A DNA stretch of 64,000 bases from Halomarina litorea (GTDB taxonomy: Archaea > Halobacteriota > Halobacteria > Halobacteriales > Haloarculaceae), in contig NZ_CP100448.1 in NCBI RefSeq assembly GCF_024227715.1, positions 2,563,655 to 2,627,654 on the forward strand, given 5' to 3'. Below are positions 48,774 through 53,222 of this stretch, piece by piece. A model generated the notes under the pieces. The model saw nothing but the letters and a program-made list of their open reading frames with translations, was not told the origin of the DNA and did no database searches. Position 1 is the stretch's first letter. Each line of letters opens with the position of its first letter. Position numbers and translations under genes: made by a program.

Positions 48774-49778
48774 TTACTTCATCCCGCGGCTGGCGAGGTG
48801 ATACTCCATGACCGTCTCCATCCCCTCGATGAACCGCTGGGTGTCAACGCTGTCGACGCCGTAGTCGCGGTTCGAGACCTCCTCGTGGCGCTGGTCCCAC
48901 TCGGCGAGGAACGCCTCCTCGACGCCCCGTTCCTTGATGCGCTGGGCGACGCGGTCCAGGTCCTGGTTCGCGGGGTCGAGTTCGTCGGGCGCGACGATAC
49001 CGTCCTGAAGCGCCTGAACGATGACGCCCGCCGAGTAGTCGCCCTCGGTGAGTTCGCGCTCCCACGTCGTGACCCAGTTGCCGATGCGCGCCATCTTCTG
49101 GAGGTCCCAGGTGAGGTCGCGGAGGCCGCTCAGGTCGGACTGGTCGAACGTCGGCGAGAACATCAGGTCGATGTCGGTGTACGAGAACAGGACCATGTTG
49201 TGCGCGCCGTACGTGCGCGCTCCCGTCCCGTTCGCGAGGTGTTTGTTGTCGCTGACGAGGCGGGTGTACTCCATCGCGTTGAACCCCTGCCGGATGTCGT
49301 ACTGGAGGATGCTCCGGAACTCGTCGTAGCGGGGGGCACCCTTGAGTCGGACCTCGATGCGCGACCAGACGTCCTGGACGAACTCGAGGACGTCCGCGTC
49401 GACACCCGGTCGGTCCGGGTCGACGGTCTGGGGTGCCGTCGCCACACGGCACGCCTCGTCGAACGTCGACGTGTCCCGTCGGGACTCGATGAGGTCGTCG
49501 AGGGTGGTGATGTACACTGTAAAGAGCGTCTTAATCTCCTTGACGTGTCCTCGGTCCGCGGCGGGGACCGACGAGAGGGTGAACGCGTCGAACAGTTTGT
49601 GGATCCACTGCCAGAGGAACCGGTCGCGGTCGTCCATTACACGCTCGTACTCCCCCGCCACGTCGACGACGACGGAGGGGAGTTCGACTGTCGTGATCTC
49701 GGTGATGAGATCCGTCGGTTCACGCTCTGCCAAGAGCGTCCGCTGATTGGTTGTGGGCTCGACCAGATCGTGTGCCAT
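48774..49778 (-). CDS. class I terpene-synthase-like protein (isoprenoid synthase fold), substrate unknown
   Basis: This 334-residue helical protein has no membrane segment. It contains DDLIE at 94-98 (an Asp-rich Mg-diphosphate motif of the DDxxE type). NWVTTWERE at 234-242 places Asn234, Thr238 and Glu242 in the NSE triad. Arg188 sits exactly 46 residues before Asn234, where class I cyclases have their diphosphate-sensing Arg. The motif spacing (139 residues) is canonical. It is unlike CrtB or prenyl transferases in sequence. Start ATG 49778 is preferred: a TATA-like TTTAATAA lies upstream at 49822-49829 and earlier ATGs overlap it. It is divergent from the sensor gene at 49959. Confidence 0.75.
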   Translation of the reverse strand: MAHDLVEPTTNQRTLLAEREPTDLITEITTVELPSVVVDVAGEYERVMDDRDRFLWQWIHKLFDAFTLSSVPAADRGHVKEIKTLFTVYITTLDDLIESRRDTSTFDEACRVATAPQTVDPDRPGVDADVLEFVQDVWSRIEVRLKGAPRYDEFRSILQYDIRQGFNAMEYTRLVSDNKHLANGTGARTYGAHNMVLFSYTDIDLMFSPTFDQSDLSGLRDLTWDLQKMARIGNWVTTWERELTEGDYSAGVIVQALQDGIVAPDELDPANQDLDRVAQRIKERGVEEAFLAEWDQRHEEVSNRDYGVDSVDTQRFIEGMETVMEYHLASRGMK

Positions 49779-49958
49779 GCCAGCTAAATCGTAGCAATAG
49801 GGGGACGTAAATGTTTGCATTATTAAATCCTTTTCGAGAGATATTCTGAAACTGGTGAATGAAACAGTCATGAAACTGGATATGTTTAGAGCAATCGTAC
49901 ATATATCCGGTATTCCCGGTCGAACAATTTATTTAGACGCAGGTATGCTGGTTACTCG
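49779..49958. promoter_or_regulatory. AT-rich divergent promoter between the terpene-synthase-like gene and the sensor gene
   Basis: This 180-nt gap is strikingly AT-rich. On the minus strand, TTTAATAA (49822-49829) lies about 45-50 nt upstream of ATG 49778, giving a short leader. On the plus strand, TTTATTTA (49928-49935) lies about 27 nt before ATG 49959, giving a leaderless sensor mRNA. The shared region suggests that the sensor controls the pair. Confidence 0.65.
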
Positions 49959-52850
49959 ATGATTTCGGGTCGGGCACAGAAAGAAACGACAGCATCACTC
50001 GTTCGTATGCTTCACGTAACGAGCGATGCAGGCGACCAGACGGGGAGTAGTACCTCGGTCACGGCCGTCGACGACTTCCAGGAGGCGTTCGACCACGTCG
50101 AGGCCGAGGCCCCACTGGACTGTATCGTGTGTGACGAACGAATCGGTGACGACTCCGGGCTGGAGTTCATCGACGAGGTGCGCGCACGCGGGGTGGACTT
50201 ACCCATCCTCGCGCGGGTCGCCCCGGAGTCGGCCGCCGACGCCCTCGCCGCGGGTGCCACCGACGTGGTGAGTCCGACGGCGTCTCCCGAGGTACTCGAC
50301 CGGCGGCTTCAAACCGTCGTGGACGCGTACGCGGGAGACCACGACCGACTCGTCCGGCGTGAGGCCATCGCGGATCTCCGCCAGTCCGCACTGGAGGGGG
50401 TCGGCCTCTCCCGACTGTTCGAGGAGTCGACTGCGCTCATCGAGGCGACGCTCGGCATCGACCGCTGTGGCCTGTTCGAACACCGCGTCGACGAGGACAG
50501 TCTCGTCCTGCGGGCGGAGACCGGGTGGGCGGGTGACCTCGACGCGCTGACCGACGACGACTCCCTCGCGCACAACGCCCTGCTCGCCGACGGCCTCGTC
50601 TGTGCCGACGGCGGCGACGGCTCCATCACGGGCGGTATCGCGGTCGGTCTCGACGTCGAGGGCACCCCCTGGGGCGTCCTCGCAGCCTACACGACCGACG
50701 GCCGGGAGTTCGGCGCGAGCGAGCGCGAACTCCTCCAGCGGGTCGCCGGCATCCTCGAACCCGTCATCGCGCGCGAACAGCGCCACCGGGAACTCGAACG
50801 CTACGAGACCATCCTCGACACCATCGACGACGGCATCTACGCGCTCGACCCGAACTTCCGCATCGAGTGGGTCAACGACGCCGTCACCAACCAGACGGGC
50901 TACGACGCCGACGAACTCATCGGGTCGCACTCCTCGCTGCTCGCACAGGACGACGTCTTCGAGATGGTCGAGAAACTGTCCCAGCAGATGGTCGAGGAGG
51001 GCAGCAACGTCGCCAGCCTCGACACCAACCTCGCCACGAAGACCGGGGATACGCTCCCCATCGAGACGCGCTTCTCGATGCGCGAGCGACAGGACGGGAG
51101 CCACGGGTTCGTCGGCGTGGTCCGCGACATCACGGACCGGAAGCGCTACGAGCAGACCCTGACCGCGCTCCACGACTCCACGCGGGACCTCCTGCACGCC
51201 GAGTCGAAACACGACGTCAGCGACCTCATCGTCGCCACCGCACAGGACGTCCTCGACATGCAGGGCGTCGGCGTCTACCTCTTCGACGGCGAGGCCGGCC
51301 AACTCGAACCCGCCGCCTGGTCCGACGAGATGGCGGAACTCACCGGCGGCCTTCCCGCCGTCGGCCCGCAGCACCCCGCACTCGCGTGGCGGACGTTCGT
51401 CGCCGGCGAACTCCTCTCGTACGACGACATCCGCGAGACGGACGACGTGTACAACGAGGAGACGCCGTTCCGTTCCGGGCTGTACGTCCCCCTCGGGGAA
51501 CACGGCGTGCTGTTCGCCGAGTCCACCGAGATCGCCGAGTTCGACCCACAGCTGACCGAACTCGTCGACCTGCTGGCCGCGAGCGCCGAGGCCGCACTCG
51601 ACCGCGTCGAGCGCGAGGACGAGATTCGCCAGCGCGACAGCGAACTGCGCGAGCAGAACGCGATGCTGACCGGCCTCAAGCGCACGAACGACATCATCCG
51701 CTCCATCGACAGCGCGCTGGTGCAAGCCGACACCCGCGAGGAGATCGAGCGGGCGGTCTGCGAGAAACTCGTCACGGCCGACGAGTTCGCCTTCGCGTGG
51801 ACCGGCGTGCTGGAGGACGGCGGCGAGCGCCTCGCCCCCCGGTCGTGGGCCGGCGACGAACGGGGCTACCTCGACACCGTCGACCTGTCGCCGGGCGAGG
51901 AACACGCCGAGCCCGCCGCGCGGGCGGCCGCCGTCCGCGAACAGGTCGTCGTCAGCGAGGTCGCGAGCGGCTTCCAGGCCGAACCCTGGCGGCGCACCGC
52001 GCTCTCGAACGACTACCTCTCGGTGCTCGCGGTGCCGCTCCTGCACGGGAGCGTCCTCTACGGCGTCCTCACCGTGTACGCGACGAAGCAGGACGCCTTC
52101 GACGAGATGACGCGCGCGGTGCTCGGCGAACTGGGTCAGACCATCGCCAACGCCATCAACAACGTCGAGACGCGGCGGACGATGCTCGCCGACCGGGTCG
52201 CCGAGATCGAACTCCACATCGACGACGACGACATGTTCCTGCGGACGCTCGCCGAGACCGCCGAGTGTCGATTCGAGGTCGACGACGTCATCCAGGAGTC
52301 CGGCGGCTCGGCGCTCGTGTTCTGTAGCGGCGTCGACGCCGACCCCGAGAAACTGCAGGCGCTGGAAGAGGAGTTCGTCGGCGTCGAACACGTCGGCATC
52401 ATCGCCGAGGACGACGAGGCGGTGCGCTTCGAGATGCGCCTCTCGGGCGACACCATCACCCAGACGCTCACCGACTGCGGGGCCGTCACCCGCTCCATCG
52501 CCGTCGACGACACCGGGACGCGCGTCGTCGTCGAACTCCCGCAGGACGCGGACGTCCGGGAGTTCGTCGAGGCGGTCCAGACGACCTATTCGGGGGTGGA
52601 CCTCATCGCGCGGCGCAACCGCTCGTCGTCCGCCCAGACCCGCCGCGACGTGCGCTCGGGCATCTCCGAACGGCTGACCGACCGCCAGCACGAGGTGCTC
52701 AGGACGGCGTACGCCAGCGGCTTCTTCGAGTGGCCCCGCGACCGCACCGGCCAGGAGGTCGCCGACTCGCTGGACATCTCCCAGCCGACGTTCAACAAGC
52801 ACCTCCGGGCCTCCGAGCGCAAACTATTCTCGATGCTGCTCGAGGGCTGA
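49959..52850 (+). CDS. multi-sensor Bat-type transcription regulator: receiver-like, GAF, PAS, GAF, GAF and HTH_10
   Basis: This 963-residue protein is modular. Residues 17-125 look like a receiver with the phospho-Asp position kept (VCDERIGDDSGLEF), but the first acidic pair and the Lys are missing. A GAF follows at 140-275. A PAS lies at about 285-400 (ILDTIDDGIYALDPNFRIEW, VRDITDRKRYE), then GAFs at about 405-560 and 575-740. A BAT domain is at about 750-890. HTH_10 is at 905-960 (LTDRQHEVLRTAYASGFFEWP, DISQPTFNKHLRASERKL). It senses light, redox or a ligand and binds DNA. It is probably leaderless. Confidence 0.92.
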   Translation: MISGRAQKETTASLVRMLHVTSDAGDQTGSSTSVTAVDDFQEAFDHVEAEAPLDCIVCDERIGDDSGLEFIDEVRARGVDLPILARVAPESAADALAAGATDVVSPTASPEVLDRRLQTVVDAYAGDHDRLVRREAIADLRQSALEGVGLSRLFEESTALIEATLGIDRCGLFEHRVDEDSLVLRAETGWAGDLDALTDDDSLAHNALLADGLVCADGGDGSITGGIAVGLDVEGTPWGVLAAYTTDGREFGASERELLQRVAGILEPVIAREQRHRELERYETILDTIDDGIYALDPNFRIEWVNDAVTNQTGYDADELIGSHSSLLAQDDVFEMVEKLSQQMVEEGSNVASLDTNLATKTGDTLPIETRFSMRERQDGSHGFVGVVRDITDRKRYEQTLTALHDSTRDLLHAESKHDVSDLIVATAQDVLDMQGVGVYLFDGEAGQLEPAAWSDEMAELTGGLPAVGPQHPALAWRTFVAGELLSYDDIRETDDVYNEETPFRSGLYVPLGEHGVLFAESTEIAEFDPQLTELVDLLAASAEAALDRVEREDEIRQRDSELREQNAMLTGLKRTNDIIRSIDSALVQADTREEIERAVCEKLVTADEFAFAWTGVLEDGGERLAPRSWAGDERGYLDTVDLSPGEEHAEPAARAAAVREQVVVSEVASGFQAEPWRRTALSNDYLSVLAVPLLHGSVLYGVLTVYATKQDAFDEMTRAVLGELGQTIANAINNVETRRTMLADRVAEIELHIDDDDMFLRTLAETAECRFEVDDVIQESGGSALVFCSGVDADPEKLQALEEEFVGVEHVGIIAEDDEAVRFEMRLSGDTITQTLTDCGAVTRSIAVDDTGTRVVVELPQDADVREFVEAVQTTYSGVDLIARRNRSSSAQTRRDVRSGISERLTDRQHEVLRTAYASGFFEWPRDRTGQEVADSLDISQPTFNKHLRASERKLFSMLLEG

Positions 52851-52946: not shown

Positions 52947-53222
52947 ATGAGCACCGACGACGCGGGCACACGACGACACGACACACACCAGCGGTCGCTC
53001 ACCATCGAGATCGTTCGCGCCCTCGCCGCCGAACACGGCTGCCGACCCGAGGCCCTCCGGCCACGACTGTACGAGGCGATCGACCCCGACGCACTCGAAG
53101 CGCTGTTCGCCCCCTGCGGCGACGGCACGCCGCGGGCGCCTGGCTGCGTCGTCTTCGAGATTGGGTCGTTCGAGGTCACCGTCGAGGGCGACCGGAACGT
53201 CTCCGTGGCGTCGGCCGAGTAG
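52947..53222 (+). CDS. HalOD1-domain protein (91 aa)
   Basis: This small protein carries the haloarchaeal output domain HalOD1: LTIEIVRALAAEHGCRPEAL, PRLYEAIDPDALEALF and a beta finish (CVVFEIGSFEVTVEG). HalOD1 is usually attached to response regulators; stand-alone forms are frequent and their targets unknown. It is 96 nt downstream of the large sensor gene and 79 nt upstream of secF. Confidence 0.88.
   Translation: MSTDDAGTRRHDTHQRSLTIEIVRALAAEHGCRPEALRPRLYEAIDPDALEALFAPCGDGTPRAPGCVVFEIGSFEVTVEGDRNVSVASAE

Follow-up and report, generated by a model that had tools for sequence, protein, structure and literature searches.

The locus raises the question of whether, in a haloarchaeon, a terpene-synthase-like gene and a sensory regulator that are transcribed away from each other across a short gap belong together, with the regulator controlling the synthase. 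We analysed a stretch of 64,000 nucleotides of Halomarina litorea (contig NZ_CP100448.1, positions 2,563,655 to 2,627,654 of the forward strand), hereafter the window, and the nearest named relatives of its genome are Halomarina oriensis and H. rubra. The pair described in the initial annotation, a terpene-synthase-like gene beside a divergent regulator, proved to be real. A gene for a putative class I terpene synthase homologue of 334 amino acids, so assigned from its motifs, the PF19086 matches of its relatives and its predicted fold, lies on the minus strand (48774–49778, start ATG at 49778). The gene for a Bat-type regulator of 963 amino acids, recognised by its Pfam domains and by relatives that adjoin synthase genes, lies on the plus strand (49959–52850), and an intergenic gap of exactly 180 bases (49779–49958) separates the two. 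The span 49779–52850, under which the pair had been described, covers the gap and the regulator, and the synthase gene lies just outside it. Moreover, an ORF encoding a HalOD1 protein of 91 amino acids (52947–53222, plus strand; PF18545, E 3.8e-21), directly after the Bat gene and kept in most of the linked loci, had been overlooked. A longer reading of the synthase gene from 49871 has an open frame, but a conserved box falls inside the extension; for this reason, and because the synthase relatives of the same genus share a protein start of the type MAH(D/E), the start was taken as 49778. Considering the evidence below together, we think it probable, with moderate confidence, that this is a haloarchaeal class I terpene synthase controlled by the adjacent Bat one-component regulator, with the HalOD1 protein as a likely partner.

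The gap has the features of a shared control region. Its length had been given correctly, and it is indeed AT-rich (60.6% AT vs 30.7% in the whole window); equally AT-rich 180-base stretches make up only 0.06% of those in the window. The TATA element that had been claimed for each gene was borne out as one conserved box on each side in all five same-genus loci with the synthase, namely a CCGAACGAtTTAT-like box on the Bat side and a TGCAAA..TTTACG-like box on the synthase side, each about 30 bases before the start codon. Three genomes of the genus that lack the synthase have the Bat-side box too. A scan of the control region for bacterial-type promoters, whose models leave out archaeal promoters, found none. 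In addition, a candidate operator profile was learnt from 13 divergent loci, all of a single lineage, with a seed chosen by eye, and a score was counted as good if at most 5 of 200 shuffles equalled it. It was good in 5 of 12 regions outside its training set (two of five same-genus loci with the synthase, two of three without it and one of four of another genus). In the window itself this profile, which stems from another lineage, scored no better than shuffles, 79 of 200 being as good. A common operator is offered as a lead only.

The question of whether the two genes stay neighbours in other haloarchaea was answered with 97 stretches around synthase genes, hand-picked from the hits for genus breadth, with many near-duplicates from two large genera left out. 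A Bat was called adjacent when it reached at least 190 bits with the Bat profile and the gap was below 1.8 kb; neighbouring genes were six-frame ORFs picked by conservation, not curated. By this measure a Bat adjoins the synthase in 36 of the 97 loci, from 13 genera and three families, so that the pairing withstands the neighbourhood check that the initial annotation had proposed; the 1.56 Mb covered by these stretches contain only two further Bats. One locus (L160), in which the Bat is fragmented, was included among the linked ones. The linked loci show three arrangements: in 22 the two genes diverge, in 11 they are in tandem with Bat upstream, and in 3 they are in tandem with Bat downstream. 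In the synthase tree, which has 98 rows since one stretch (L109) carries two synthases, all 36 linked synthases fall into a single clade of 37 rows, where each arrangement forms one group. Thus, the linkage has outlived changes of arrangement. The Bat tree contains 35 of the 36 linked Bats, which fall into four groups; both trees were made by a quick method. Repeated independent recruitment of Bat is not claimed from these groups, as a single origin was not rejected (AU p 0.40).

Linkage inside one clade is in part plain inheritance, and this leads to the strongest of the other readings, namely that the genes are neighbours by inheritance only: Bat and HalOD1 would control something else or themselves, and the synthase would have been inserted beside them and be otherwise controlled or constitutive. 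In three of eight same-genus genomes (G003, G004 and G005) the Bat stands without any synthase, the rest of the neighbourhood, PGI through SecD, being kept, including HalOD1 and Bat (54–55% identity), and the Bat-side box persists there as well. Since the Bat is in place there without the synthase, it serves, or once served, some other purpose; either a pre-existing Bat acquired the synthase as its neighbour or the branch of these three genomes lost it. Furthermore, an adjacent Bat is absent from 61 of the 97 sampled synthase loci, which also weakens the proposal of a sensor-controlled module, while the identification of a terpene synthase homologue and of a Bat-type regulator and the conserved neighbourhood stand. 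Against inheritance alone, a linkage that runs through three arrangements, 13 genera and three families exceeds what is expected of a remnant of drift, and a short shared divergent gap is found in 22 loci. We therefore hold this reading to be possible but rather unlikely, and control of the synthase by the Bat, as judged from the sequences, to be likely.

The regulator is multi-sensor and of Bat type, as had been proposed. In Pfam its domain order is receiver-like, GAF, PAS, GAF, GAF, BAT and HTH_10, with BAT (PF15915, E 2.3e-40) followed by HTH_10 (PF04967, E 3.5e-20), PAS (PF00989, E 1.5e-13) and GAF matched in three stretches (PF13185, E 4.9e-32), and the order of PAS, GAF, BAT and HTH_10 is identical in seven linked Bats of other genera. 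Read from the letters, the receiver-like N-terminus has neither the acidic pair nor the lysine, which we take to be the usual receiver residues; phosphorylation is therefore doubtful. The PAS domain of the window's Bat was searched for three LOV cysteine strings, all of which are absent, and light or oxygen as the stimulus is a guess by analogy with the family. The same PAS, GAF, BAT and HTH_10 domains are found in Halobacterium Bat, NarO and DmsR, and PMC11218638 describes bacterioopsin activators with these domains and with low-oxygen or anaerobic roles. The window's Bat differs from the known bacterioopsin activators in its extra receiver-like N-terminus and its several GAF domains, and also in that it adjoins a terpene synthase gene, with no bop, other opsin or carotenoid gene found among the identified neighbours of the pair.

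As for the small gene behind the regulator, HalOD1 follows the Bat in 28 of the 36 linked loci vs 10 of 37 unlinked Bats by profile (Fisher p 1.9e-05, with the kinship of the loci ignored), a count which favours the linked loci because the profile was derived from them; tblastn added one further linked locus (L098). The window protein is, like other HalOD1 proteins (PF18545), a single HalOD1 domain, and it differs from them by standing beside a Bat gene. We consider it a likely partner of the Bat regulator.

The synthase family is much wider than its linkage with Bat. Matches came from 17 of 59 near relatives and from 120 of the 391 genomes sampled across the class. At the level of the phylum, 38 of 392 genomes have the family; of these 38, 17 lie outside the class, some with weak or partial matches, and long and strong matches outside the class but in the same phylum come from six genomes (G431, G619, G540, G556, G620 and G654). 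No relative was found in viral contigs. A second member of the family is encoded in the genome of the window (C1:582352-583311, L112:7341-8315), with no Bat within the surrounding 16 kb; it adjoins ORFs that by eye resemble the large subunit of a diol dehydratase and the matching reactivase. In another genome of the genus a synthase copy is split over two frames (L114, G006:C1:1465603-1466531). By raw counts, a FilR1-type HTH gene stands beside 12 of the 98 synthases and a PAS histidine kinase beside 9, and a metallo-beta-lactamase-fold gene is the sole modelled neighbour class beside 15, while 26 have none of the four modelled neighbour classes. The FilR1/HVO_A0261-type gene is mostly directly downstream on the same strand (L107, L128, L129, L130 and eight other loci). 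The synthase and the metallo-beta-lactamase-fold gene are divergently arranged within a single clade (L113, L116, L121, L122, L136, L137, L141, L143, L148, L165, L168, L169, L173, L187 and L189). A type II/IV secretion ATPase gene lies beside the synthase in two loci lacking all modelled classes.

A second reading would turn the relation of the two genes around: the terpene or a derivative of it would act as a ligand that the regulator next door binds with its GAF or PAS domains, and the pair would be a chemical signalling cassette. Several regulator types recur beside the synthase, the receptor is kept in relatives without the synthase, and the families of linked loci have no tailoring or transport gene in common beyond HalOD1. 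Moreover, PMC5413776 has put forward archaeal proteins with HTH_10, BAT and GAF domains as putative LuxR solos, and this is the closest printed idea to such a reading. On the other side, the Bat-type regulators described in PMC11218638 respond to low oxygen or anaerobic growth, and ordinary control commonly uses two-gene operons. We regard the cassette as improbable, and there is an equally slim chance that Bat, FilR1-like and histidine kinase regulators have been exchanged around one synthase family in a wider archaeal signalling system, whose synthase-less relatives keep the receptor.

It remains to be asked what the left gene encodes. The first metal-binding motif of class I terpene synthases, DDxx(D/E), is present in the window protein as D94 D95 L I E98, and over the 98 alignment rows of the family D94 is kept in 92, D95 in 97 and D or E at position 98 in 97. 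The second one, the NSE motif N-xxx-S/T-xxx-E, is present as N234, T238 and E242, with N234 and E242 each in 98 of 98 rows and T or S at position 238 likewise in 98 of 98. Of 19 aligned relatives, 16 are matched by PF19086 (Terpene_syn_C_2) in Pfam (best E 1.6e-07); the window copy itself has no terpene synthase match in Pfam up to E 10, and in NCBIfam none of the 19 aligned members is matched, nor is the window copy. The AlphaFold model has a pTM of 0.70 and a mean pLDDT of 67.8, and residues 236–249, around the NSE motif, are predicted poorly; it was built on an alignment of only four sequences, because the single-protein scan of genome contigs gave three relatives. When the model was compared with the PDB by VIA, all 50 matches listed were terpene synthases (Z 16.1–18.4), in line with an alpha-domain fold, and Foldseek lists farnesyl diphosphate synthases and terpene synthases (E ~1e-3 to 1e-2). 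When solved structures were searched by sequence, with either the window protein or the profile of its family as query, the matches were at chance level only, among them a weak one (E 2.1) to 7e4m (Stt4548), presumably a bacterial diterpene synthase, and the window protein has 6–12% identity to the terpene synthase structures listed. The family has DDxx(D/E), NxxxTxxxE and the alpha-helical fold in common with the class I terpene synthases of PF19086, and differs from them in being archaeal, in a window copy below Pfam detection and in lacking a family-wide sensor Arg or RY pair: where a pyrophosphate-sensor Arg is usual, 46 residues ahead of the NSE motif, the window protein has Arg188, with Arg there in only 19 of 98 rows, and an RY pair within the last 45 residues occurs in 30 of 98. 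From its motifs, the profile matches of its relatives and its predicted fold we assign the left gene to the class I terpene synthases, with a presumably catalytic product, which agrees with its first description as terpene-synthase-like. That it would be another enzyme of the isoprenoid-synthase fold, for example a prenyltransferase, is very unlikely: the first three Foldseek matches listed are farnesyl diphosphate synthases (E ~1e-3), the family is very divergent and no terpene synthase profile of Pfam matches the window copy, but its second motif is of the NSE type with N and E invariant, where prenyltransferases have DDxxD, and the terpene synthase profile and the VIA matches listed point the other way.

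The catalysis, substrate, regulation and stimulus that we infer for the terpene synthase under Bat control could fit together as follows. The PAS and GAF domains of the Bat would respond to a cue from inside the cell, be it redox state, oxygen or a small ligand, and its HTH_10 domain would bind within the shared 180-base region, by which the synthase gene and probably also its own gene would be switched on. The synthase, whose DDxxE and NSE motifs would bind Mg2+, would then ionise a prenyl diphosphate (GGPP or FPP) and release a small terpene. Both GGPP and FPP are available in haloarchaea from the lipid and carotenoid pathways.

As for earlier work, a 2024 preprint by Samusevich et al. (bioRxiv 10.1101/2024.01.29.577750) is said, by its title, to report elusive terpenoid biosynthesis in archaea. 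In the open-access literature, beyond whose reach subscription papers and preprints mostly lie, we found no paper on the pairing of a synthase with a Bat. PMC12797696 mentions rare archaeal examples, its reference 39, given for archaea, being a prenyltransferase paper, and also cites the preprint by Samusevich et al. Two terpene clusters per Halomicroarcula genome are reported in PMC8600319, and PMC6939163 describes gene expansions in haloarchaea, some of them in a terpene-like context. As far as open-access searches reach, this is a real and conserved sensor-synthase arrangement, of which the parts are known and the pairing is new. The arrangement suggests that in these cells a terpene may be made only on the signal of a sensory switch. 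To our knowledge, archaeal terpene chemistry beyond lipids and carotenoids is barely charted, and a synthase family that often has a dedicated sensor as its neighbour offers a direct way into it. The stimulus of the regulator would show when the terpene is needed, the divergent promoter could be used as a reporter, and a Bat-type regulator gains a likely target that is neither an opsin nor a carotenoid gene.
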